A DNA stretch of 25,423 bases, taken from IMG/VR virus record IMGVR_UViG_3300032236_000021, positions 1 through 25,423 of that record. The stretch is one strand, 5' to 3'. Shown here piece by piece: positions 10,314 to 25,423 of the stretch. Source of the DNA: a virus. The translations under genes were made by a program, and so were the position numbers. Within the stretch, counting starts at the first letter, position 1; every line of letters starts with the position of its first letter. A model generated the notes under the pieces. The model searched no databases. It was not told the origin of the DNA and saw only the letters and a list, made by a program, of their open reading frames with translations.

Positions 10314-11288
10314 TTAGGTTGTCAACAAGCCTTGCAAGAAGCTGTTAGATGTAGTCAAGTTACCAGCCCAGCCATACAATTTAACGATGGCATCTTGGTT
10401 GATAGATTGACGCTCACCACCGATAGGTACAAAGTTACGCTCTTTGTGTGGGCGTAAGAAAATGTAGTTGGTGTTAAGCATATACATATAAGTAGCTGTT
10501 TCTTGTGAACCATAACCACCGCCTAATACTACATCGGCTGAAGTACCGCCACCGTAGAATTTGAGGGAAGCAAAACCAGCAGCGCCAGACTCTTCAGCAG
10601 CGATACGCTGAATAGACTGTAGTGCGCCTACATAATATGAATACATTGTGTTACCAGCAACAATCAAGTCAGCTTTGTCTGTGCCACGAATCTGTTTGAT
10701 AGCAGCGTCAGTCATTTTTGACAGGATGTTTGCAGAGGTAGCCCCTGTAGTAATCTGGTTCTGCCAGAAAGTCCATACTGCGCGGTTGATACCACCGTAT
10801 GTGCCAGTTGAAGGTGAAACTGCAACAGCAGCGCCCAAACCATCCAAATTCTTGCCTCCGTTACCAGTTCCATTGCCATACAAGTCACCAGAAATACGGT
10901 TTAACAAGCGGGCTTCAGAAACTTGCATACGACCATCTAACAAGTCAATGATTGCTTCTTTAGAGCTGTTCTGCAACATTTCTAAGCCAGACATTGTAAC
11001 TGCGTCAGCGTACTGAGCAATCTTGTATTGTGCGGCAGAAATAGGGCTATCCGGGGCGATGTTTAAAACCTCGTACCCACTATAGCTGTTTGCATTGTTG
11101 GTGGCGCTGTCATCGTACATTATCTCTTCCAGGATAACATTTCCTCCACTAAAAGGTCTTACATTTCCTTTTTGCTGTAGGCGCTGAAGAATAGCGTTAT
11201 TCTGGGTTAAGTTGTCGGCGAGTTCACCGCTACGACTTTGAATAGTGGTAGCGATAATATCGGTAATAGCTGAGTTAGCGAATGCCAT
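10314..11288 (-). CDS. Major capsid protein (HK97-fold type)
   Basis: A 324-residue major head protein. The start MAFANSAITDIIATTIQSRS, then RPFSGGNVILEEIMYDD (about residues 44-60), a helix with VTMSGLEMLQNSSKEAIIDL (about 96-115, the spine-helix position) and the C-terminal NTNYIFLRPHKERNFVPIGG (about 273-292) are the recognisable pattern of a widespread podovirus capsid family. It follows the scaffold gene and precedes a decoration-like gene, the canonical order. A strong AAGGATATATC ribosome binding site and an upstream hairpin suggest high expression. No protease domain is fused or adjacent, in keeping with assembly on a separate scaffold. Confidence 0.88.
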   Translation of the reverse strand: MAFANSAITDIIATTIQSRSGELADNLTQNNAILQRLQQKGNVRPFSGGNVILEEIMYDDSATNNANSYSGYEVLNIAPDSPISAAQYKIAQYADAVTMSGLEMLQNSSKEAIIDLLDGRMQVSEARLLNRISGDLYGNGTGNGGKNLDGLGAAVAVSPSTGTYGGINRAVWTFWQNQITTGATSANILSKMTDAAIKQIRGTDKADLIVAGNTMYSYYVGALQSIQRIAAEESGAAGFASLKFYGGGTSADVVLGGGYGSQETATYMYMLNTNYIFLRPHKERNFVPIGGERQSINQDAIVKLYGWAGNLTTSNSFLQGLLTT

Positions 11289-11299
11289 GATATATCCTT

Positions 11300-11321
11300 A
11301 AAAAAATGTGCCAAAATTGGC
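11300..11321 (-). other. Hairpin plus T-run just upstream of the capsid gene
   Basis: On the minus strand GCCAA-TT-TTGGC (11321-11310) forms a short stem, followed by ACA and a run of seven T, ending directly at the capsid ribosome binding site. It lies in the 36-base gap after the scaffold stop. It could attenuate read-through, or protect the 5' end of a processed capsid mRNA. The five-bp stem and the three-base offset of the T-run make it a weak terminator. Confidence 0.4.
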
Positions 11322-11324
11322 TAG

Positions 11325-12377
11325 TTAAACCCGACGGCTCATTGCTTCGCCTAATCCTTCGGCAATCAAAGACCGTCTATCCTTTTTATCTTCTGGATTA
11401 CTCACTTTTCCACTAGGTGTAGTGGATTTAGGACTAACCGCAGCAGCCTTAGCCTTCGCTACTTGCTGTGCTTTGAGTGCTGATTGTTTGGCCTCTTTCA
11501 AGAGTCTATCTTGCTCTAATGCCCATACATCATCATTCATACGCACGGCTTTCTTGTAGGCCGTTTCTAGGTCTTGGGCTTTCCCTAGCTCAAGTAATTG
11601 AGCCATTTCTTCCCTTACCACATCAAAATGCGGGAATTTCTCCGCATCACTTCTTACTCTTTCAATTTCATTTGTTAAGCGTTGGTTTTCTTCATGCTGA
11701 AACCGACTCTTAATAGATGAAACTTCTTGATTAACCTGATTTAACTGGTTCATCAGTTGTTGAGTATATGCGTCTTGTTGTATAGGCGCAACACCTTCAC
11801 CATTTAATTGTATACCATAATCTTGTGCAAGTCGCTGAAACATTTGGACTTTCTGCTCGTATGGTGCTTTACTTAATACCATGTGGGCACGACCTAAATT
11901 ATTAATCCATGCAGCAGGGCTAATATTTTGTGCTTGCAGCTCAGGTACAAATGGCGCAATAGCTTCTTCGTAGCCTTTAGCTCTGTCAGCTTCAGCTTTA
12001 TAAGTGCTTACGCCTTTCTTGTATTCTGACTCACGCTGATTAGCGTATTCAGCAAATTTAGTGAAATCTTCTTTACTAATCTGTTCGCCAGCTTCCATCT
12101 TGTCCCAGATAGTGACATATTCTTTTTTCCATGTAGATGGGCGAGTTACTTTCTCCTTCGGCGCCTCATCCTCATCCTTAAATTCAATAGGCTCAGCATC
12201 TTCGGCAGTTTCTTCGTTATCTTGTGCGCTAATTTCCTCTTGAGCGGACTCCTCGGAAATGTCGTCCTTTTCAGCCACTTCAATGTCTTTTTCGATGGGT
12301 GCTTCAAGAGTGCCTTCCTCTGCTGCGTCTAATGCAGCTTCTAATAAATCTCTGCGGTCTAAGTTTTCTTCTGACAT
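11325..12377 (-). CDS. Head scaffolding protein
   Basis: A 350-residue, highly charged, mostly helical protein directly upstream of the major capsid gene. Residues 1-80 are strongly acidic (for example IEKDIEVAEKDDISEESAQE). A Trp-containing motif follows (RPSTWKKEYVTIWDKMEAGE, about 79-98), then alternating Lys/Glu helices with Gln-rich segments (YTQQLMNQLNQVNQEVSSIK) and a basic C-terminal end containing KKDRRSLIAEGLGEAMSRRV. The acidic N-terminus, coiled-coil core and basic tail match scaffolding proteins of podoviruses. It would fill the procapsid and leave or degrade before packaging. GGAGAAACC directly precedes the ATG. Confidence 0.8.
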   Translation of the reverse strand: MSEENLDRRDLLEAALDAAEEGTLEAPIEKDIEVAEKDDISEESAQEEISAQDNEETAEDAEPIEFKDEDEAPKEKVTRPSTWKKEYVTIWDKMEAGEQISKEDFTKFAEYANQRESEYKKGVSTYKAEADRAKGYEEAIAPFVPELQAQNISPAAWINNLGRAHMVLSKAPYEQKVQMFQRLAQDYGIQLNGEGVAPIQQDAYTQQLMNQLNQVNQEVSSIKSRFQHEENQRLTNEIERVRSDAEKFPHFDVVREEMAQLLELGKAQDLETAYKKAVRMNDDVWALEQDRLLKEAKQSALKAQQVAKAKAAAVSPKSTTPSGKVSNPEDKKDRRSLIAEGLGEAMSRRV

Positions 12378-12392
12378 GGTTTCTCCAATGGG

Positions 12393-12785
12393 TTATCGTA
12401 ATTTGGCGTATGCCAGCTCTGCAATTTGACGCTTTCGTGCTTCTTGTGACTGTCTGCTCATTTCTGGTGCTTTTTGCTGCATAGGCACATCGTTGCCTAA
12501 TTCGATACAACCGTTGCGTTTTAGGTTTTCTCTGTGTTTGCTGCGACTATCTACCCATGTGCCATCAGCCATTGAAATATGACCTGGTATGTCAGACATT
12601 ACCATTGGCGCTTCTTTAGGCGACATACTTAACTTTGCTTGCCACGCTTCTTCAGCTTCAGGTGTATTAAATGGGATATTCCAGTAAGCAAGATAATGCT
12701 CTTTGTCATCATATTGCGCTGCGTCATATTCTTCATGGGCAACCTTACAATGCGGGCAAGTTACCGTGACTTTTACTAATGCCAT
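12393..12785 (-). CDS. Small phage protein with single CxxC knuckle
   Basis: A 130-residue protein beginning MALVKVTVTCPHCKVAHEEY, with one CxxC pair (C10, C13) and a nearby His. A central segment DIPGHISMADGTWVDSRSKH (about residues 65-84) is followed by RENLKRNGCIELGND. The 'DI.G..S..DG..V.SRSKHRE.L...' block is common in small phage proteins encoded just before the scaffold. The second metal-binding pair of a classical FmdB zinc ribbon is missing, so zinc binding is uncertain. Its start overlaps the stop of the glycosyltransferase gene (TAATG), and it ends 15 bases before the scaffold ATG. Confidence 0.7.
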   Translation of the reverse strand: MALVKVTVTCPHCKVAHEEYDAAQYDDKEHYLAYWNIPFNTPEAEEAWQAKLSMSPKEAPMVMSDIPGHISMADGTWVDSRSKHRENLKRNGCIELGNDVPMQQKAPEMSRQSQEARKRQIAELAYAKLR

Positions 12786-13693
12786 TACATTCTCCTTATC
12801 AAATCGGGTATTTTGTGCAATTCTTCTTCTTCAACAGTTACTACAGAGTTGTACCATGTGCCGTGTTTCCATCGCCAGCACTTAAATTCTTTTTTAGGCA
12901 TAATCACAATCGTCTTTACACCCAAAGCACCAGCTAAATGTGCTATACCTGTATCTACAGTCACTAGACCTTTGCACGCTTTAAGATGACTTGCAGTTTT
13001 ATTCCAGTCTTTTTGCCATCCGTCTTTAGGAAGTGGTGACCAAAACCTATCTTCTTCAGGATTAAACGAATAAGCGTCAGGACCTACTAGCTCAAGCATC
13101 TTTTCGGGGTGCATAGTGCGTACATAGTGCAAAAGACCTTTTGAAGTAGACCAATTTACTGCGAGTTTTTGAGGAATATTGCTTGGAATAGCGTCTAAAT
13201 AGCCTTCTGAGCCTACAATCTTGTGTAAGTTGCATGGAAACAACGCTCTAGCGTATGCGGGCGCCAAACTAATGTAATAAGGCAAAGAAATTATGCCAAT
13301 CCAGTAATCTGACTCTGTTGCAACACCCTCTTCGGGCATATTTGTGAATGTATCAACACATTCCATTTGACCAAACAGCGTATGTAATGAGCCATGTTGT
13401 AATAAAACAACAGATTTAGCTCCCATCACCTTTAAAAAAGGCAAAAAGCGTGCATATTGAATGATGTCGCCAAAGCCTTGCTCTGCTTGCACAGTAATTG
13501 TCTTGCCTAAAAGACTTTCGCCTCGCCAAACAGGCATTTTTAACTTTTGATGATATGGCTGCGCTTGATTAGCAATAATCTCAGGGTGCCATCTATATTC
13601 AAAGAGTCTAAAACCAGCGTCTAAACGACCAGCGTGCAGGTGTTCGTATGCTTTTTTGTATTCTGTGTGCGGGTTTAAAGTAAGAGTGCTAAT
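12785..13693 (-). CDS. GT9/heptosyltransferase-like glycosyltransferase with probable ATT start
   Basis: The first ATG in frame (13537) gives 250 residues, but the reading frame is open back to a TGA at 13705-13703. The added codons encode a recognisable family N-terminus: LNPHTEYKKAYEHLHAGRLD, then GFRLFEYRWHPE, leading into KMPVWRGESLLGKT. This is the usual TPR-like 'G....F..YRW....P.W.GE.L.GKT' join. No ATG, GTG or TTG lies in the extra part. ATT at 13693-13691, six bases after GAGGA, would give MSTLTLNPH and 302 residues. The catalytic core follows: AEQGFGDIIQYARFLP, later GLVTVDTGIAHLAGALGVKT and VIMPKKEFKCWRW. It should transfer a sugar from an activated donor; the acceptor is unknown. 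It overlaps the upstream gene by 19 bases. Confidence 0.75.
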   Translation of the reverse strand: MSTLTLNPHTEYKKAYEHLHAGRLDAGFRLFEYRWHPEIIANQAQPYHQKLKMPVWRGESLLGKTITVQAEQGFGDIIQYARFLPFLKVMGAKSVVLLQHGSLHTLFGQMECVDTFTNMPEEGVATESDYWIGIISLPYYISLAPAYARALFPCNLHKIVGSEGYLDAIPSNIPQKLAVNWSTSKGLLHYVRTMHPEKMLELVGPDAYSFNPEEDRFWSPLPKDGWQKDWNKTASHLKACKGLVTVDTGIAHLAGALGVKTIVIMPKKEFKCWRWKHGTWYNSVVTVEEEELHKIPDLIRRM

Positions 13694-14154
13694 AGTGCTT
13701 CCTCATCGTCTAATTCTGCTTGACGCTTCACTTCTAAGATTGCTAACTCTTGCTCTAATCTGAGTTTTGCAGCTCTTATCAATACAGCGTTTTGCAAGTC
13801 TTGTTGTTGCGTTACAAGATTAGCGATGTATCGGTCAATATTTGCTAGGTTTGACGGTATATCAACGCTAACTTCTTGATTGGATTGTATATTAGTTTGT
13901 TGTTTCTTTGCAACGGGTTTTGGGTCTACTAAATCAGCAATAGTTTGTTTGCGATTTTCAGCATCAGACTTGAGTGCTGCAATACGCTTTTCTTCTGCTT
14001 GACGCAGTTTCTTCTGAATGCCTTTAAGACGCTTTAATTCTTCTCTTGTATATGGTGCATCATCCCCGCCAAACTTGGTAGGTTCAACAGGGGTAATGAC
14101 AATTTGAAATGCGTCATTTTGAAACGCATTGACTTGGAAAGCAGTTTGAAACAT
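13675..14154 (-). CDS. Unknown coiled-coil protein after fibre gene
   Basis: A 159-residue protein. The N-terminus MFQTAFQVNAFQNDAFQIV shows the 'FQ..FQ.NAFQ.DAFQ' repeat common to small phage proteins in structural operons. The rest is charged helix: REELKRLKGIQKKLRQAEEK (about residues 37-56), a Gln/Asn-rich linker, and a long Leu/Glu/Lys helix ending DDEEALLALLL. A coiled-coil interaction partner is likely, perhaps the fibre encoded just upstream (TAATG overlap). Its last codons contain the GAGGA that would serve as ribosome binding site for the glycosyltransferase. No enzymatic motif is seen. Confidence 0.65.
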   Translation of the reverse strand: MFQTAFQVNAFQNDAFQIVITPVEPTKFGGDDAPYTREELKRLKGIQKKLRQAEEKRIAALKSDAENRKQTIADLVDPKPVAKKQQTNIQSNQEVSVDIPSNLANIDRYIANLVTQQQDLQNAVLIRAAKLRLEQELAILEVKRQAELDDEEALLALLL

Positions 14155-15935
14155 TAGAATGTACCGCCAGACACCCCTACATAGCTTGTAGCGGTAACTG
14201 TAGTAAATGCACCAGTATTGGTGGTTGTAGCGCCCACAGTACCATTAATATTGATTGAGGCCGTACCAGTTAAATTAGTTACTGTTCCGCTAGACGGAGT
14301 ACCCAAAGCACCGCCTACTGAATATTTACCATTAAAAGTAGTCCAATCAGTGCTTGTAAGGTATCCATTTACACTTCCTGTGGCAGCAGCCATGCTAATA
14401 GCTGGAGTTGCACCACCACTACTTACTACTGGGGCAGTACCCGTTACGGAAGTAACTGTTCCGCTACCTTTGTTATTAAATGTAGTCCAATCAGCACTAG
14501 TCAAATAGCCGTTTACGCTACTTGTTGCGGCTGGCATTGAAATGGCAGGAGTATTGCCACCGCTAGAAACTACAGGGCTTGTACCAGTAACGCTAGTAAC
14601 TGTTCCTACTGAAATCGACCCACCAAGGCTTGTGCTTGTGCCGTTAATAGTAATGGCAGAGTTTACAAGGGCTGAATTAGGGATAGAGGTAAGGCTTGCA
14701 CCTGAACCGCTAAATGTTGTAGCAGTTATGGTTGTTCCTGTAATGGCTTTTGGCGTTGTTGCACCAATAGTCATATTGTCCATTGTTCCTACATAAGTAG
14801 GGTTTATTTGGATTGAATTAACGCCAGTAGGATTTATATGGACATGACCAGTACCAGTAGGGCTAATGTCTATTTGTGCATTTGCACCATTAATATTGGT
14901 AGAAACATTGATTGAAGCATTATCGCCACCGCCTGCACCCATGCTAATTTGAGTTGTTCCTGCGGAGTTTTTAAGGGATAAACCACCTGAATTTGATGCT
15001 TGTACTATTGGTGTAGTAAGGCTTGTAGAAGCAGATAGCGTTGTAATTCCTGTGGTTGCGCCTGTGTCACCTATTGTAACTACGCTGTTTTGCAGTAATT
15101 TGCCTGTAGTTGTGTCATAGCGAGCTATTGCGTTATCTGTTGCGCTTGATGGTCCTACTACATCGCCACCTAAAGATGGGCTTGAATTAGTAATCACGCC
15201 TGTACCACTATCGTAGCTAATTCCTGTGCCAGCACTTACAGAAGTCCTAGCCCTAGCAGTTGTGAAGTATTGATTTGTGCCTTCAGCTACATCAGTAGTT
15301 GTTAATACGACTGCGCCTGTAAAGCCATTGACGCTAGTTACAGAGTCAGTATTGTCTATTTTTTGCCATGCTGACCCATTGTAAACAGCCCAGTCACCCA
15401 CTTGCCAATCTGTAACCCCGTTAAGATTAGTGCTACCAGCAACAGATACAACATAGTAGTAGCCCTTAGTACCAACAGACGAAACAAGAGTAGGGATATT
15501 TGTGCTGGCATTCCATGTTCCTTGATAGTTAAGTGCGCCTAAAACTGCTGCGGGTAATTGACTTGTTGGTACTGTACCAGCGCCATCTAATGTAGCTACA
15601 CCATTTGCTACACCTTTTTGTGCAGTCGCAACATAATCGCTAATTGTGACGCCATTCATTGTGCCACCAGTAACAGAAATGTTGTTACTGTTTTGCGTTG
15701 ACATTGTGCCTAAACCTGTAACATCAGTATTAGGTATAGTCGCAGCAGCAGTCATGTTAGCTGTGCCATTGCCTTTTACATAGCCTGTCAATGTAGCTGC
15801 GCCAGTACCACCATTGGCTACAGGTACAGTACCGACTAATTGATGGTCTGCGTTCCAATCACTTGGTCGTACAACACTTGTGTCATCCCCATCAGGTATC
15901 GTTGAAACCTTGGTATGCTTGACTGTAATAGCCAT
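14154..15935 (-). CDS. Repeat-rich tail or head fibre protein
   Basis: A 593-residue Gly/Ser/Thr-rich fibre. It starts MAITVKHTKVSTIPDGDDTS, typical of phage fibre N-termini, and contains VPVANGGTGAATLTGY (about residues 37-52). A globular insert follows (LNYQGTWNASTNIP to QVGDWAVYNGSAWQKID, about 135-194), then TTTDVAEGTNQYFTTARAR (about 212-230), a segment frequent in marine and freshwater phage fibres. Residues 444-491 and 492-539 are two tandem 48-residue repeats (GTVTSVTGTSPVVSSGG..). The end is VGVSGGTF. It lies between portal and scaffold genes rather than with the other fibres, so it may be a head fibre or a second receptor-binding fibre. Start ATG overlaps the portal stop. Confidence 0.75.
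   Translation of the reverse strand: MAITVKHTKVSTIPDGDDTSVVRPSDWNADHQLVGTVPVANGGTGAATLTGYVKGNGTANMTAAATIPNTDVTGLGTMSTQNSNNISVTGGTMNGVTISDYVATAQKGVANGVATLDGAGTVPTSQLPAAVLGALNYQGTWNASTNIPTLVSSVGTKGYYYVVSVAGSTNLNGVTDWQVGDWAVYNGSAWQKIDNTDSVTSVNGFTGAVVLTTTDVAEGTNQYFTTARARTSVSAGTGISYDSGTGVITNSSPSLGGDVVGPSSATDNAIARYDTTTGKLLQNSVVTIGDTGATTGITTLSASTSLTTPIVQASNSGGLSLKNSAGTTQISMGAGGGDNASINVSTNINGANAQIDISPTGTGHVHINPTGVNSIQINPTYVGTMDNMTIGATTPKAITGTTITATTFSGSGASLTSIPNSALVNSAITINGTSTSLGGSISVGTVTSVTGTSPVVSSGGNTPAISMPAATSSVNGYLTSADWTTFNNKGSGTVTSVTGTAPVVSSGGATPAISMAAATGSVNGYLTSTDWTTFNGKYSVGGALGTPSSGTVTNLTGTASININGTVGATTTNTGAFTTVTATSYVGVSGGTF
14319..14606 (-). repeat. Two tandem 144-bp repeats inside the fibre gene
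   Basis: Copies at 14606-14463 and 14462-14319 each encode 48 residues of the form GTVTSVTGT.PVVSSGG, then SVNGYLTS.DWTTFN. The proteins differ at only a few positions while many third codon bases differ, so the duplication is old enough to have drifted. It lengthens the fibre shaft or repeats a folding unit. Confidence 0.75.
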
Positions 15936-18208
15936 TATTGGACTCCAGTTACACGACCATCAGGACCTCTTACGATTGTTCTTGGTCGATTATTTTGCTC
16001 ATTAATTGTGTTAACTAATTGACTGATTGCGCCTGCCATCTCTTGATTACCACGACCAATAGCGTCTGCAATAGGCTGCATAGGATGTTGCATAGCTTGT
16101 GCCATATCTTCTTCATTTGCATAAGCCATTGCGCCATCAGAGTCATCAGAGCCAATACGAGCTACTTCAATCTTAGCGCCATTGTTAATGTGAGCTAACA
16201 GCACTTGAGTGTTGCGCTCTGTCATCATCTTCATTTGTGCTACTTTTAGCTCCATCTCTCTGTCCATCTGATTACGCTGTTCTTCAAGTTGGAATTTAAG
16301 TTGATTTTCTTGTGCTTGGAATTCTTGTTTAGCTTTCTCAACTTCAATCTGAGCCTGCATCTTCTGCTGCTCAAGCTGTGCTTGCATTTGCATTTGCTGC
16401 ATCTTAGCTTGTGATTCCATCTGCGCTTTTTGAATCTCAGGTGCTGGTGGCTTAGGCTGACCTTTAGTCATCTCGTATTGTTTGCGTAAATCATCAGCAG
16501 TTTGGTCAATAATACCTTCTAATTGTTTGCCTGCTTTAAATGCTGTTACGCCAAATTTCAGCATTTCCATCAACATTGGTGTTAATTCAGGTGCTTGTGT
16601 AGCTGCTGGCAAAGCCATTTGCATGAATTGACCTACTGCTGCTAAAAATGCTGTTCTATCAGCTTTTTCTTGCTGCTCATCTTGGTAAATCATTGAGTCA
16701 GAAGTGACCTCAATTCTAAAGTTTTTAGCGCACTCGTCACGCAATAGCGCAATAGCGTCTGGAATTAACTTTCTATCTTGCTCAGAAAGCTGCATTGCAC
16801 CAGAAATCTTGATTAGCGTGTCATCAGTAAAATGATTGCAAATAATCTGCGCTTTAATACTTAACAAGCTAGTAGCAAAGTCAACGACTGCGTGCTGTTG
16901 AGTTTTTAAACGACCTGCCGCATTATTTGATTTAATGATTTGGGCGCCAAGCGTGTCATTAGGGTCAGACTGACCACGCTGAATGTCTGCAATACCCATT
17001 AATTCATAAATTTGACCTTTAACTTGGTCCATTGCTTGATAGCATGACATCAATGCGCTTGCAAATGGCGCTAAATCTACTAAATCAATCGCACCTTTCA
17101 TGCCTTGCTTCTCAGCAAAAGCCATCCAGTTACTTACTGGAATCATGGTGTTGTTTTCGCCTTCAGAGAATAAGCGTTGTAGCTCACTTGCTGAAGCGTC
17201 ATATACACCACGCACTTTCAATGCGTTAATCAAGCCATCAATTCTGTCGCATAAAACATCTAATTCTCTTGCTTGGTCCTGATAAATAGTAAAGTCAGGA
17301 ATAGGCTCTAAAGAGTCAGTTGTTAGTGTTGCATATAGTGGTTTTGGGCATGGCCAGAAGTTTTCAAGACCTAACGGGTCATCTCTTTCGTCAACAATTT
17401 TGCCGAGTGACTTAGAAATCCATAATACTTTGCCTGTTTCTTTGTCCCAGACTTCGTATATCACCGCTTCATATACTCCATCATCAGACTTGTACGACTG
17501 TTTTAAGTCATCAGGCTTTGTATCTAGCGGTATCTTATAACCTAATTCTTCACCAAAACGCTCAACAAGCGCAGGCCTAGACATATACACTCTGCGCCAG
17601 ACTGCTGTTACTTCTTCCCATGTGCGAGCAATCGTATGCCCAAAGTCACGCCAATGGACATAGTCAACAGGGCAGCACTCATACTCAATGCGCTCTTGTG
17701 ACTCAATCTCTGTAGCTTCTGGTGTTTCAGCTTCGTCACTATCTTCAGTTACGCTTAGCCCGTCATCAGGCATATCTTCTGCGCCAGCTTCTTCACCTAC
17801 AATATGTGGCTCATAACGCACCCAAGCTACACCACGACCACCTAACAATCTGTCTAAGACAGCGTTATTCATTGCTGATTTGTAGTCACCGTAATGCTCA
17901 ATCTCAAACTCTAATGCTCTTTCAAGCATCATTGATGCTACACGACCTATTGGGTCATTGTCCCTAAACCTACGGCTAACATCAGGTCGAGGAAGTCTTG
18001 CAAAGATAGCTGGCTGTATAGTCTGCACATTGCTCCAGAGTATGTTGAAGCGTGCATTAGGGTTTCTGTCGTATCGGCTATCATCTTTATATTTCTTTAC
18101 AATGCGGTCTACTCTGGCTTCCCAACGCTTGTAGCTGCGCTCATAGCCCATAATTGTTTTATACCAGTCCTCATAAGTATGATTGACTGTAGCTTTATCA
18201 TTCGCCAT
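15935..18208 (-). CDS. Portal protein (P22 gp1-like)
   Basis: A 757-residue portal, close to the length of P22-type portals. Recognisable parts are YKRWEARVDRIVKKYKDD and NPNARFNILWSNVQTIQPAI near the N-terminus, and RLPRPDVSRRFRDNDPIGRV. LLGGRGVAWVRYEPH (about residue 120) follows, then PVDYVHWRDFGHTIARTWEE. In the wing/stem part is GIADIQRGQSDPNDTLGAQI. Roughly residues 595-700 form a long Gln/Met/Glu coiled coil (for example MQMQAQLEQQKMQAQIEVEK), as in portal barrels. The longest frame starts at a GTG (18247), but the ATG at 18208 is preferred. It overlaps the terminase stop (TGATG) and has GGGAGA upstream. It forms the dodecameric packaging vertex. Confidence 0.88.
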   Translation of the reverse strand: MANDKATVNHTYEDWYKTIMGYERSYKRWEARVDRIVKKYKDDSRYDRNPNARFNILWSNVQTIQPAIFARLPRPDVSRRFRDNDPIGRVASMMLERALEFEIEHYGDYKSAMNNAVLDRLLGGRGVAWVRYEPHIVGEEAGAEDMPDDGLSVTEDSDEAETPEATEIESQERIEYECCPVDYVHWRDFGHTIARTWEEVTAVWRRVYMSRPALVERFGEELGYKIPLDTKPDDLKQSYKSDDGVYEAVIYEVWDKETGKVLWISKSLGKIVDERDDPLGLENFWPCPKPLYATLTTDSLEPIPDFTIYQDQARELDVLCDRIDGLINALKVRGVYDASASELQRLFSEGENNTMIPVSNWMAFAEKQGMKGAIDLVDLAPFASALMSCYQAMDQVKGQIYELMGIADIQRGQSDPNDTLGAQIIKSNNAAGRLKTQQHAVVDFATSLLSIKAQIICNHFTDDTLIKISGAMQLSEQDRKLIPDAIALLRDECAKNFRIEVTSDSMIYQDEQQEKADRTAFLAAVGQFMQMALPAATQAPELTPMLMEMLKFGVTAFKAGKQLEGIIDQTADDLRKQYEMTKGQPKPPAPEIQKAQMESQAKMQQMQMQAQLEQQKMQAQIEVEKAKQEFQAQENQLKFQLEEQRNQMDREMELKVAQMKMMTERNTQVLLAHINNGAKIEVARIGSDDSDGAMAYANEEDMAQAMQHPMQPIADAIGRGNQEMAGAISQLVNTINEQNNRPRTIVRGPDGRVTGVQ

Positions 18209-19551
18209 CAAATTCTCCCTCTTGAAGTCTGTGGCGTCTGTTTCCACAAATCGTTCAAGCTAACATCGGTTTTACCTACAAATACCCCTTTAATCGAGTC
18301 ATCTTTCGAGGGTAACTTAGCTTCTTCTTTCCATGCAATACTCAGCATCCTAAATGCGTCTGCACCATGGCTTGTCCAATCGTGCCTAGGTTTATCTCTA
18401 AACACTTTCTTATCTTCATCGTACTCACGCTGGTACTGCCTTAAACATTCAATGCCATCTTCGCACTTATGGTCAAACCAAGCCCTGGTCAATGCCAATC
18501 TGCTTGCTTGAATTCCATCTTGTAGTGACAAACTTGGCACAATTTTCATTGATTTTAACGCAATTTTGTCTGAAAGTTGCTCAATTATGCTTCTATTTGA
18601 GGCAAGTGTCTTAGCTCGTGCATCGTGAGGTAAGTAATGTGTACCATACACATAGCCTTTTTCTTTCTCTCTCGACTGAATTATGCCTGAGTAAAACGCT
18701 ACAGGCTGCCCATTTGACGAATGATAGTCAAGCATACGAATTTCACCATGCACTACTTGAAACCACCATATTGCCGTATCGTCTGAATAGCCAAGGTCCC
18801 ATGCTGTATGCACAGGAAACATAGGGTCGTACTCAATATCTGTAATTCTGCCTTGGTCTGTGATTTGGCGCATTTCCTTACCATAGAAAGCGCCTAGGAT
18901 TGCGGACTCAAAGTCACATTCAAACTCTTGTAGATATTGGTCCTGCGTCATTGACTTAGCTGCGTCTTGTAACTCAGAAGCTGGTATTAAACCAGTCTGA
19001 CTGGCTCTCAGCGTCTTAGCGTACCAATCGCTGTCTTTAGTCGCATTGTTGTATATGTCCCAGAAAGCATTATGCCCTTTAGGTGTGCCAATGAATACAG
19101 CCCAGCCTAATCTATCTGCAAGCAGCGGGCGAATAATCTCACCCCATATTCTAGGGCGCATATCGGCATACTCGTCTAATACTATGCCATCAAGATACAA
19201 ACCACGGAGACTGTCAGCGTTATCAGCACCAAACAAACGAATCCTTGCACCATTTATTAGCTCTACCCATAATTCGCTTTGGTTTGCTTTAGCCATGACA
19301 GGTCTACTAAAGCGTAATAAGTAGTCCCATGCAATGTTTTTGGCTTGGCTGTAATAAGGCGCCACATAGGCATAGCGACCATCTTCTTTATTCTCTATAA
19401 GTGCTTTGTATACCAGCTCGTTAATGCAGCTTACTGTCTTGCCGCACCTACGATGAGCCACTATTACTGCCCATCGTTGACTTCTTTCGTGAAAGTCTAG
19501 GAATACATCTCTAGGCTTGTAGTCTAGCTCTACATCTATTACTTCTTCCAA
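18208..19551 (-). CDS. terL: Terminase large subunit, TTG start
   Basis: A 447-residue packaging motor. ATPase: Walker A AHRRCGKT (residues 32-39), Walker B IVLDE (123-127) and coupling motif FIGTPKG (153-159). Nuclease (RNase H fold): WDLGYSDDTA (251-260; D252, D257/D258), LDYH (D275), LPHDA (307-311) and SHGADAFRM (394-402; D398). The complete motif set indicates an active ATPase and headful- or site-cutting nuclease. The frame has no ATG before residue 85. The only candidate start after the in-frame TGA is TTG at 19551, which overlaps the end of the TerS-like gene by 13 bases. A strong ribosome binding site is not apparent, so translation is probably coupled. Confidence 0.9.
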   Translation of the reverse strand: MEEVIDVELDYKPRDVFLDFHERSQRWAVIVAHRRCGKTVSCINELVYKALIENKEDGRYAYVAPYYSQAKNIAWDYLLRFSRPVMAKANQSELWVELINGARIRLFGADNADSLRGLYLDGIVLDEYADMRPRIWGEIIRPLLADRLGWAVFIGTPKGHNAFWDIYNNATKDSDWYAKTLRASQTGLIPASELQDAAKSMTQDQYLQEFECDFESAILGAFYGKEMRQITDQGRITDIEYDPMFPVHTAWDLGYSDDTAIWWFQVVHGEIRMLDYHSSNGQPVAFYSGIIQSREKEKGYVYGTHYLPHDARAKTLASNRSIIEQLSDKIALKSMKIVPSLSLQDGIQASRLALTRAWFDHKCEDGIECLRQYQREYDEDKKVFRDKPRHDWTSHGADAFRMLSIAWKEEAKLPSKDDSIKGVFVGKTDVSLNDLWKQTPQTSRGRI

Positions 19552-24204: not shown

Positions 24205-24371
24205 TTGTTTGTTTCTCCCCTATTTCCTAATTCCCATTGCTCAACAAAATCTGCAATAGTTTGTTTGTCAAAATTGTATTTAGCTAAATATGCTCTAAAT
24301 TTTTCTCTGCCCCATTCCTTTCTGTATTTAAGTAATTGCCTCACCTTGCATTGATGCTTGTATATTTCCAT
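24156..24371 (-). CDS. Small conserved phage protein (C.VRQLL...QWELGNRG type)
   Basis: A 71-residue protein with HQCKVRQLLKYRKEWGREKF at the start and TIADFVEQWELGNRGETNKW near the end. The 'C.VRQ.L..R' and 'QW..GNRG' blocks together mark a small phage family of unknown function. The start ATG lies 44 bases inside the end of the glycosyltransferase gene, and the C-terminal part after GNRGE overlaps the hidden membrane gene. Both overlaps are unusually long for this window. An Arg/Lys-rich helical make-up suggests nucleic-acid or protein binding. Confidence 0.65.
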   Translation of the reverse strand: MEIYKHQCKVRQLLKYRKEWGREKFRAYLAKYNFDKQTIADFVEQWELGNRGETNKWILKDTLSQQQGLDI

Positions 24372-25227
24372 TCTTCTTAAACTTTTCTGAAATAATCTTA
24401 GGCACAGTTGTGTCCCAATTAATGCTATGGTGCAAGCGTTTATTGCTTTGACCCATTTGTCTTATTTTAACGCTAGACGGGTTATACAAAACAGTATAGA
24501 AACTTTTGACATAGGTGCCATAGTTTAAATAAATATCTGTCAAACCACCCGCATTTGACTGTGTTTGTTTCTGTTCTAGTCGTAATTGTGCAACAGTCAT
24601 AAATAAATGACCCTTAAAACCAAAGCTACAGTAAGCATTGACATCTTCATTAATTCTACCTACAAATTGAAATGGCCTGTCAGTTGAACATAAAAAGCTA
24701 TTCATTACTTTGCGTGAAATTTGACCATCTAAGAATGTTTTGCTTAAACCACTGCCTGCGCCACCAATAAAATCACCACCTTGCGCCATGCAAATTGAAG
24801 TAAATGGTGTTGACTTGTAAAACTTCAGCATAATTGCAAAAATTTTGTCTAAATTGTTAACATATTTGTTAGTCACATATTTGCGCTCATTTGTGAATGA
24901 CCAACGAAAGTCTGTGTAGTCATCGTCTAACACCATGAAGTATTTGCAGCCAATACCTTTAGCTAAGTCAAAAACAGCGTTTCTAGCGTACACAACAGCA
25001 CGCTTGTCTGTAAAGTTGTCCCCTACATCAAAAGTCTTGGCCACCTCGTTTTTAGAAAATGTCAGAATATCGTTAGCGTACGCTTTTTCGTACTCATCAA
25101 TAGTCTTATCTTCATCATCTAAAACTAAGTAAATTTTGCCTGTATAACCTTTTTCACGCAGCGTATTGTAAGTAAACACTCTGTCAGGGCGAGCATGAGT
25201 CAGAATAAACACACACAAATTATCCAT
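24328..25227 (-). CDS. TET-associated-type glycosyltransferase (TAGT-like)
   Basis: About 299 residues from ATG 25227 (MDNLCVFILTHARPDRVFTY). Motifs in order: ILTHARPDRV, GYTGKIYLVLDDEDKTIDEY, VGDNFTDKRAVVYARNA, then FMVLDDDYTDF (the DxD-type metal/nucleotide-sugar site), MAQGGDFIGGAGS, CSTDRPFQFVGRINEDVNAY, QTQSNAGGLTDIYLNYGTYV and KRLHHSINWD. This combination matches phage glycosyltransferases predicted to act on modified DNA bases with TET/JBP-type oxygenases. The longest frame begins with a TTG at 25308, which would overlap the upstream gene by 89 bases. ATG 25236 (MSKMDN) is an equally possible start. Neither a TET-type gene nor a C5-methyltransferase is visible in this window. Confidence 0.75.
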   Translation of the reverse strand: MDNLCVFILTHARPDRVFTYNTLREKGYTGKIYLVLDDEDKTIDEYEKAYANDILTFSKNEVAKTFDVGDNFTDKRAVVYARNAVFDLAKGIGCKYFMVLDDDYTDFRWSFTNERKYVTNKYVNNLDKIFAIMLKFYKSTPFTSICMAQGGDFIGGAGSGLSKTFLDGQISRKVMNSFLCSTDRPFQFVGRINEDVNAYCSFGFKGHLFMTVAQLRLEQKQTQSNAGGLTDIYLNYGTYVKSFYTVLYNPSSVKIRQMGQSNKRLHHSINWDTTVPKIISEKFKKNGNIQASMQGEAIT

Positions 25228-25423
25228 TTTGCTCATCCAAGTAAGCATTAGACAATTCGTTATTGAGTGTTGCAAACCCGTTTTCAATAGCTTTGTCAAA
25301 GTCAACAATGACTAATGCTGACTGCTCCATTAAATTTTGCATCTCTGCGCTTGAGTGTGCGTAGTAGTCTGCAATCTTTGAGAAGTTAAAGACAATATGA
25401 CGCTGTGCAGCATAAATAAGAAA
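25220..25423 (-). CDS. Partial unknown protein, C-terminal 67 residues
   Basis: The frame is open to the window edge. It reads FLIYAAQRHIVFNFSKIADY, then YAHSSAEMQNLMEQSALVIV, then DFDKAIENGFATLNNELSNA and YLDEQNG before TAA at 25222-25220. It has a clear secondary-structure rhythm and overlaps the glycosyltransferase start by eight bases, so it is a real gene and is co-translated. I do not recognise the family with confidence. Its position beside a TAGT-type enzyme makes a DNA-modification or ParB-like role conceivable, but the N-terminal part is needed. Confidence 0.65.
   Translation of the reverse strand, partial: FLIYAAQRHIVFNFSKIADYYAHSSAEMQNLMEQSALVIVDFDKAIENGFATLNNELSNAYLDEQNG

Follow-up and report, generated by a model that had tools for sequence, protein, structure and literature searches.

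The closest described relatives of the locus analysed here are glycosyltransferases of the TAGT family (PF20691), which Iyer et al. are said to have defined in 2013 through linkage to TET, and the TET/JBP-associated TAGT systems employ the same glycosyltransferase family as the enzyme described below. The wider family also includes two eukaryotic proteins, GREB1 and the kinetoplastid J-base glucosyltransferase (JGT), the latter requiring the hydroxymethyluracil made by JBP. To our knowledge, the characterised relatives that act on DNA, namely the TAGT of phage T6 and the kinetoplastid JGT, require a hydroxymethylated or glucosylated pyrimidine. The T2/T6 TAGT is a phage-encoded enzyme of GT-A type from the same Pfam family; that of T6 adds a second glucose to alpha-glucosylated hydroxymethylcytosine (HMC) (PMC13216743, PMC13390438), and the acceptor is supplied in this phage by a dCMP hydroxymethylase and an alpha-glucosyltransferase. 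GREB1 carries its TAGT domain beside a helicase domain of nucleic-acid-binding type (PMC6163654), and O-GlcNAcylation of ER-alpha by this protein has been reported, as cited in PMC10908778. In addition, a 2026 paper counted, among 753 phage genomes with glycosyltransferase homologs, 288 with a solitary TAGT whose role is unknown (PMC13216743).

The window, that is, the whole stretch of DNA that was analysed, is the entire IMG/VR record of 25,423 bp, which stops at position 25423. The features of concern lie at its right end:

24328..25227, minus strand: TAGT-family glycosyltransferase P0002, 299 aa, ATG at 25227, matching PF20691 and phrog_842
24907..24927, minus strand: DDDYTDF (residues 101-107), metal/nucleotide-sugar motif of DxD type; D, D and Y at 102-104 do not vary among 32 diverse homologs
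24637..24660, minus strand: GRINEDVN, putative active-site loop (residues 190-197); G190, N193, D195 and V196 invariant, N197 almost so
24499..24549, minus strand: GGLTDIYLNYGTYVKSF motif (residues 227-243); G228, Y233, T238 and K241 invariant
25220..25423, minus strand: C-terminal half of a partner domain, P0003, 67 aa, matching the partner HMM with E=1.5e-31

The mechanically called open reading frame covers 24328-25308 with a TTG start at 25308, which was dropped as being without homolog support, the internal ATG at 25227 being backed by all homologs. The original prediction of a TAGT-type glycosyltransferase holds for this minus-strand frame, which was matched by the Pfam profile PF20691 with E=6.7e-36 and 124.6 bits (curated cut-off 27.5) and by PHROG_842 with E=3.7e-75, and which is under purifying selection, as indicated by dN/dS values of 0.04-0.14 in comparisons with six relatives. 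Judged by these profile matches, the protein belongs to PF20691 and is a fresh member of a known family. All three motifs named in the prediction were found, and they are kept across 32 homologs with identity down to 42%. An AF2 model of the protein (pLDDT 82, pTM 0.83) matched GT-A/GT2 enzymes in a Foldseek search against the PDB, with E-values down to 4e-5, and the enzyme is thus predicted to be a glycosyltransferase of GT-A fold with a DxD-type motif.

Because the record ends at 25423, the contig could not be extended and near relatives were examined instead. In one of them, G001 (33,917 bp), the TAGT is 97% identical to that of the window, the aligned blocks mostly show 87-96% nucleotide identity, and both ends map to overlapping window positions, 5945 and 6023. 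By this alignment G001 is the window genome in near-complete, circularly permuted form, so that the sequence past the window edges is represented by about 7.7 kb of G001. Pfam searches of the ORFs of at least 90 aa in this part identified a PD-(D/E)XK nuclease, an ERF recombination protein and a DUF1376 protein, the last being followed by a 132-aa ORF without matches and then by the partner gene; no TET, C5-methyltransferase, pyrimidine hydroxymethylase or alpha-glucosyltransferase was detected there, the TET model being one without a working positive control.

The search was also made in further records, among which HHTV-2, Nocardia phage NTR1 and Lactobacillus phages c5 and phi jlb1 are complete genomes. 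The C5-methyltransferase profile PF00145 had no match in 32 records, G001 included, and was positive in 10 control genomes. The thymidylate synthase/hydroxymethylase profile PF00303, positive in the T6 control, had no match in G001 or in 30 of the 31 other records, its sole match being a thyA-like gene in the 191-kb Vibrio phage pv27, which was also its only match among carriers in the run with T6 as control. The alpha-glucosyltransferase profile PF11440, likewise positive in T6, matched none of 23 carriers. The TET profile PF12851 had no match in the 32 records and was equally silent in Send513, P-SSM2 and PSS2, which were tried as positive controls; its sensitivity in phages is unproven, and because it was silent in every control its silence falls short of fully excluding a divergent TET.

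The suggestion that TET and methyltransferase genes might lie just outside the window was therefore not borne out either in the 7.7 kb of G001 or in the 31 further records, with the TET model uncontrolled, and such partners were dropped from consideration on the evidence of G001 and the complete isolates. The alternative offered with that suggestion, that the enzyme works with host or other base precursors, may hold. We consider it very improbable that the canonical TET pathway operates here, with TET and a C5-methyltransferase encoded elsewhere in the genome and the TAGT glycosylating 5hmC. The name of the family, the Pfam description of PF20691 and the definition of TAGTs through TET linkage, reportedly given by Iyer et al. 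in 2013, speak for that pathway, but G001, HHTV-2, NTR1, c5 and phi jlb1 are without any enzyme of C5-methyltransferase or thymidylate-synthase type and gave no TET match with the uncontrolled model. Compared with TET/JBP-TAGT systems, the clade has an obligate partner domain, has no C5-methyltransferase and yields no match to the same uncontrolled TET/JBP model.

The PHROG name 'beta-glucosyl-HMC-alpha-glucosyltransferase' implies instead a T-even-like transferase adding a second sugar to already glucosylated hydroxymethylcytosine, a role that we find scarcely credible in this clade. It is true that the T6 TAGT belongs to PF20691 and is described as the adder of the second glucose (PMC13216743, PMC13390438); however, the HMM of the clade misses the T6 protein, which is too divergent for it and matches PF20691 with E=3.7e-9 as against 6.7e-36 for the window TAGT, no partner domain is encoded next to the T6 gene, and the carriers have no AGT (23 carriers) and no dCMP-hydroxymethylase-type gene (the thyA-like gene of pv27 apart), T6 being positive for both. 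Since the clade HMM misses the T6 TAGT and the acceptor-forming enzymes are missing, the T6 function is not transferable, and the database name is misleading for this clade. A T6-like second-glucose function was dropped, being already largely refuted by gene complement as well as by divergence.

The gene that constantly accompanies this TAGT clade encodes the partner domain, and not a TET or methyltransferase. The co-translated neighbour noted earlier as running off the right edge of the window is real (25220-25423, minus strand, 67 aa); it shares 8 bp with the start of the TAGT gene, and its N-terminal half falls past the record end. The accompanying statement that the 25 kb hold no TET, methyltransferase or ParB-like gene was incomplete with respect to ParB, given that this neighbour matches phrog_620, a 'ParB-like partition protein', with E=9e-6. 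The match is made through the C-terminal domain, which in other viruses is fused to ParB; in the nearest relatives of the window the ParB N-terminal domain is absent from the partner, and the full partner is a stand-alone 134-aa ORF in three relatives of 96-97% identity (L002-L004).

The partner domain comprises about 108 aa, with invariant positions in the pattern YT...P.Y...FL..A..RH...A..Y...E....V..D...A...G, and lies 5' of the TAGT in 189 of 196 loci. The seven misses are five contig-end cuts, which account for all failures of the partner HMM 5' of the TAGT among the loci gathered through the TAGT (72 of 77 matched), together with a partner remnant (L187) and a cut TAGT (L200), the two exceptions among 39 TAGT loci of GTDB genomes (partner at 37). 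A scan made with the partner only gave 80 loci, 79 of them new, and a TAGT lies downstream in every one of the 79 new loci, while among 50,697 phage records the partner was found in 28, all within the 34 that carry this TAGT clade. The partner of a Porphyromonas phage is divergent (HMM E=3e-12). In two cases the partner has been lost: ORF1 of LL-Ku (L213:90-938) is a deletion chimera joining a ParB start to the C-terminal part of a TAGT, and in Ld17 (L212:75-833) the TAGT has decayed.

No model of Pfam, NCBIfam or PADLOC covers the partner domain above threshold, and a fold search with its model, of moderate quality (pLDDT 71), matched no solved structure. Below the cut-offs there are weak profile matches of the window partner to PF23887 (phage L5 gene 47-like) and of the partner domains at L056:9574-9993 and L071:7193-8002 to UPF0262/NF002769; on these sequence matches, both could possibly be distant relatives of the domain.

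The ParB N-terminal domain is optional in this group. Among the 196 loci, 98 partners are stand-alone, 88 are fused to a ParB N-terminal domain and 3 are cut. The annotation of E. coli AMR2684 shows a split ynaK next to an intact TAGT reading frame. ParB was thus dropped as an obligate partner, since it is missing from half of the loci and the TAGT frame stays intact beside the split ynaK. On the TAGT tree several switches between the fused and stand-alone states are needed (8 by parsimony, at least 2 of them forced). After removal of the outlier L076, the distance correlation is r=0.53 between partner and TAGT and 0.26 between ParB and TAGT; a first mirror-tree value of r=0.79 had been inflated by this outlier, and r=0.53 was taken instead.

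The genomic setting differs with the fusion state. In loci with enough flank for counting, ParB-fused pairs lie at most 4 kb upstream of TerL in 27 of 39 cases, compared with 2 of 22 for stand-alone pairs (Fisher p=4.5e-6), and the stand-alone pairs are found near replication genes (DnaB, DNA polymerase A, beta clamp). The ParB domain of the E. coli fusion protein YnaK matches the N-terminal part of the PADLOC model MTase_II (PDLC03229) with E=2e-38, indicating that this ParB module also occurs in DNA methyltransferases. YnaK therefore shares its N-terminal domain with phage DNA methyltransferases of ParB type, but YnaK systems have the partner domain and a glycosyltransferase in place of the methyltransferase.

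The hosts of viruses carrying the pair include Haloarcula, Nocardia, Lactobacillus, Vibrio and Escherichia, and prophage-like loci occur in Bacteroidota, Bacillota, Pseudomonadota, Verrucomicrobiota, Spirochaetota and others. Of 5,426 complete E. coli genomes, 885 (~16%, about one in six) contain 80% or more of the ynaK-TAGT sequence. In intact Rac-type prophages the lysis genes come first, then the gene for YnaK, which consists of ParB plus partner, then the TAGT gene and, directly next to it, terminase. In contrast, the Rac prophage of K-12 type (H74-H76) matches no more than the first 254 bp of the query, a stretch annotated ynaK/ydaY, so that in these strains partner, TAGT and terminase are missing and only the start of the ParB-partner gene is left.

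Taken with the predicted GT-A fold, these associations lead us to lean, with modest confidence, towards a two-component, TET-independent system in which partner and TAGT would transfer sugar to the phage's own DNA, the partner domain keeping the glycosyltransferase on its substrate. In the lineage of the window this partner would act as a stand-alone protein of 134 aa whose gene has genes of replication and recombination as neighbours, and in many other viruses as the C-terminal part of a DNA-binding protein of ParB-like type whose gene adjoins the terminase, settings that suggest that the sugar would be put on the DNA at replication or shortly before packaging. The glycosylation would probably shield phage DNA from host nucleases. 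The acceptor would not be the product of any TET, C5-methyltransferase or thymidylate-synthase-like hydroxymethylase of the phage, and might be an unmodified or host-modified base, or one prepared by the partner. We infer DNA as the acceptor, an adaptor function for the partner and a protective role from the gene associations; the adaptor function is a guess, because the partner fold (pLDDT 71) matches nothing known. A more specific proposal, possible though doubtful, is a self-sufficient chemistry in which the pair glycosylates DNA bases not hydroxylated by any phage enzyme, be they unmodified or those of the host, or in which the partner is itself a base-activating enzyme, in a system common to bacterial and archaeal viruses and to ~16% of complete E. 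coli genomes.

No source of a hydroxymethylated or glucosylated pyrimidine acceptor was seen in the carriers, which counts against the DNA reading, and the literature search returned nothing on modified DNA for HHTV-2 and no biochemical or mass-spectrometric report of modified DNA for any carrier. The main rival, which we regard as rather unlikely, is protein glycosylation: the target of the pair would be a protein of phage or host, such as one of packaging or replication, or else the partner. RefSeq labels the E. coli TAGT 'GREB1-related protein' in some genomes ('hypothetical protein' in others), and GREB1 is reported to glycosylate a protein (cited in PMC10908778), an activity that sets GREB1 apart from the DNA-directed role proposed for the window TAGT. 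That the TAGT has one small protein as its constant companion (1:1) would likewise be in keeping with an acceptor or a chaperone, and no base-hydroxylating enzyme was found in the carriers, the thyA-like gene of pv27 apart and the TET model uncontrolled. On the other hand, the fusion to ParB and the siting by replication and terminase genes point to DNA, the ParB domain of YnaK is also part of a DNA methyltransferase model (PADLOC MTase_II), and the accessory enzymes near the pair look like those of base hypermodification.

These accessory genes, between or beside the members of the pair, vary from locus to locus. A second TAGT follows in tandem after one ParB-partner gene in five loci (L172, L173, L189, L195 and L196), and a radical SAM enzyme is encoded after the TAGT in L189 and L191. 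A PAPS-reductase-like gene lies between partner and TAGT in L017:9162-9998 and upstream of the pair in L112:2697-3554, and a SAM methyltransferase adjoins the pair in L005 and L180, with similar ORFs in L013 and L098. In many loci, among them L070:8790-9839 and L057:4283-5251, a histidine-phosphatase/cytidylyltransferase fusion is encoded between partner and TAGT, the gap between the two genes recurring at ~0.93-0.97 kb, which suggests a dedicated nucleotide-activated donor. The TAGT at L192:5446-6849 carries a P-loop nucleotide-binding/kinase-like domain as an N-terminal fusion, and Mom (PF25680, E=5e-38) is encoded just downstream of the TAGT in L034:11129-12073 (plus strand), the only one of 24 records tested in which it is present. 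By analogy, these genes appear to resemble the enzyme sets of base hypermodification. Separately, L048 encodes, downstream of its TAGT, a class II ribonucleotide reductase (12356-14230).

Some other small or macromolecular target, for instance a nucleotide, a tRNA or a host envelope glycan, with the enzyme serving as an infection-control factor, seems improbable to us. In its favour, the structural matches among GT-A/GT2 enzymes include cell-wall and small-molecule transferases, but the strict pairing with a partner that can be fused to ParB and the linkage to genes of DNA metabolism and packaging speak against it.

As far as the literature searched shows, the partner domain and the fixed, apparently TET-less two-component arrangement are undescribed; no paper linking ParB and TAGT was found in it, and Iyer et al. 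2013 may mention a ParB link. If the product of the proposed DNA glycosylation is glycosylated DNA formed without TET or hydroxymethylase, it would represent a new chemistry of phage DNA protection. With this clade, a group of solitary TAGTs acquires a constant partner that can be put to the test. Because intact pairs reside in Rac-type prophages of 885 of the 5,426 complete E. coli genomes, the question of which target is modified can be answered in a laboratory organism. Elsewhere in the window, the capsid and portal proteins encoded at 10314-18247 are closest to those of Myxococcus phage Mx8 and Bradyrhizobium phage ppBjS10J-1 (34-51% identity).
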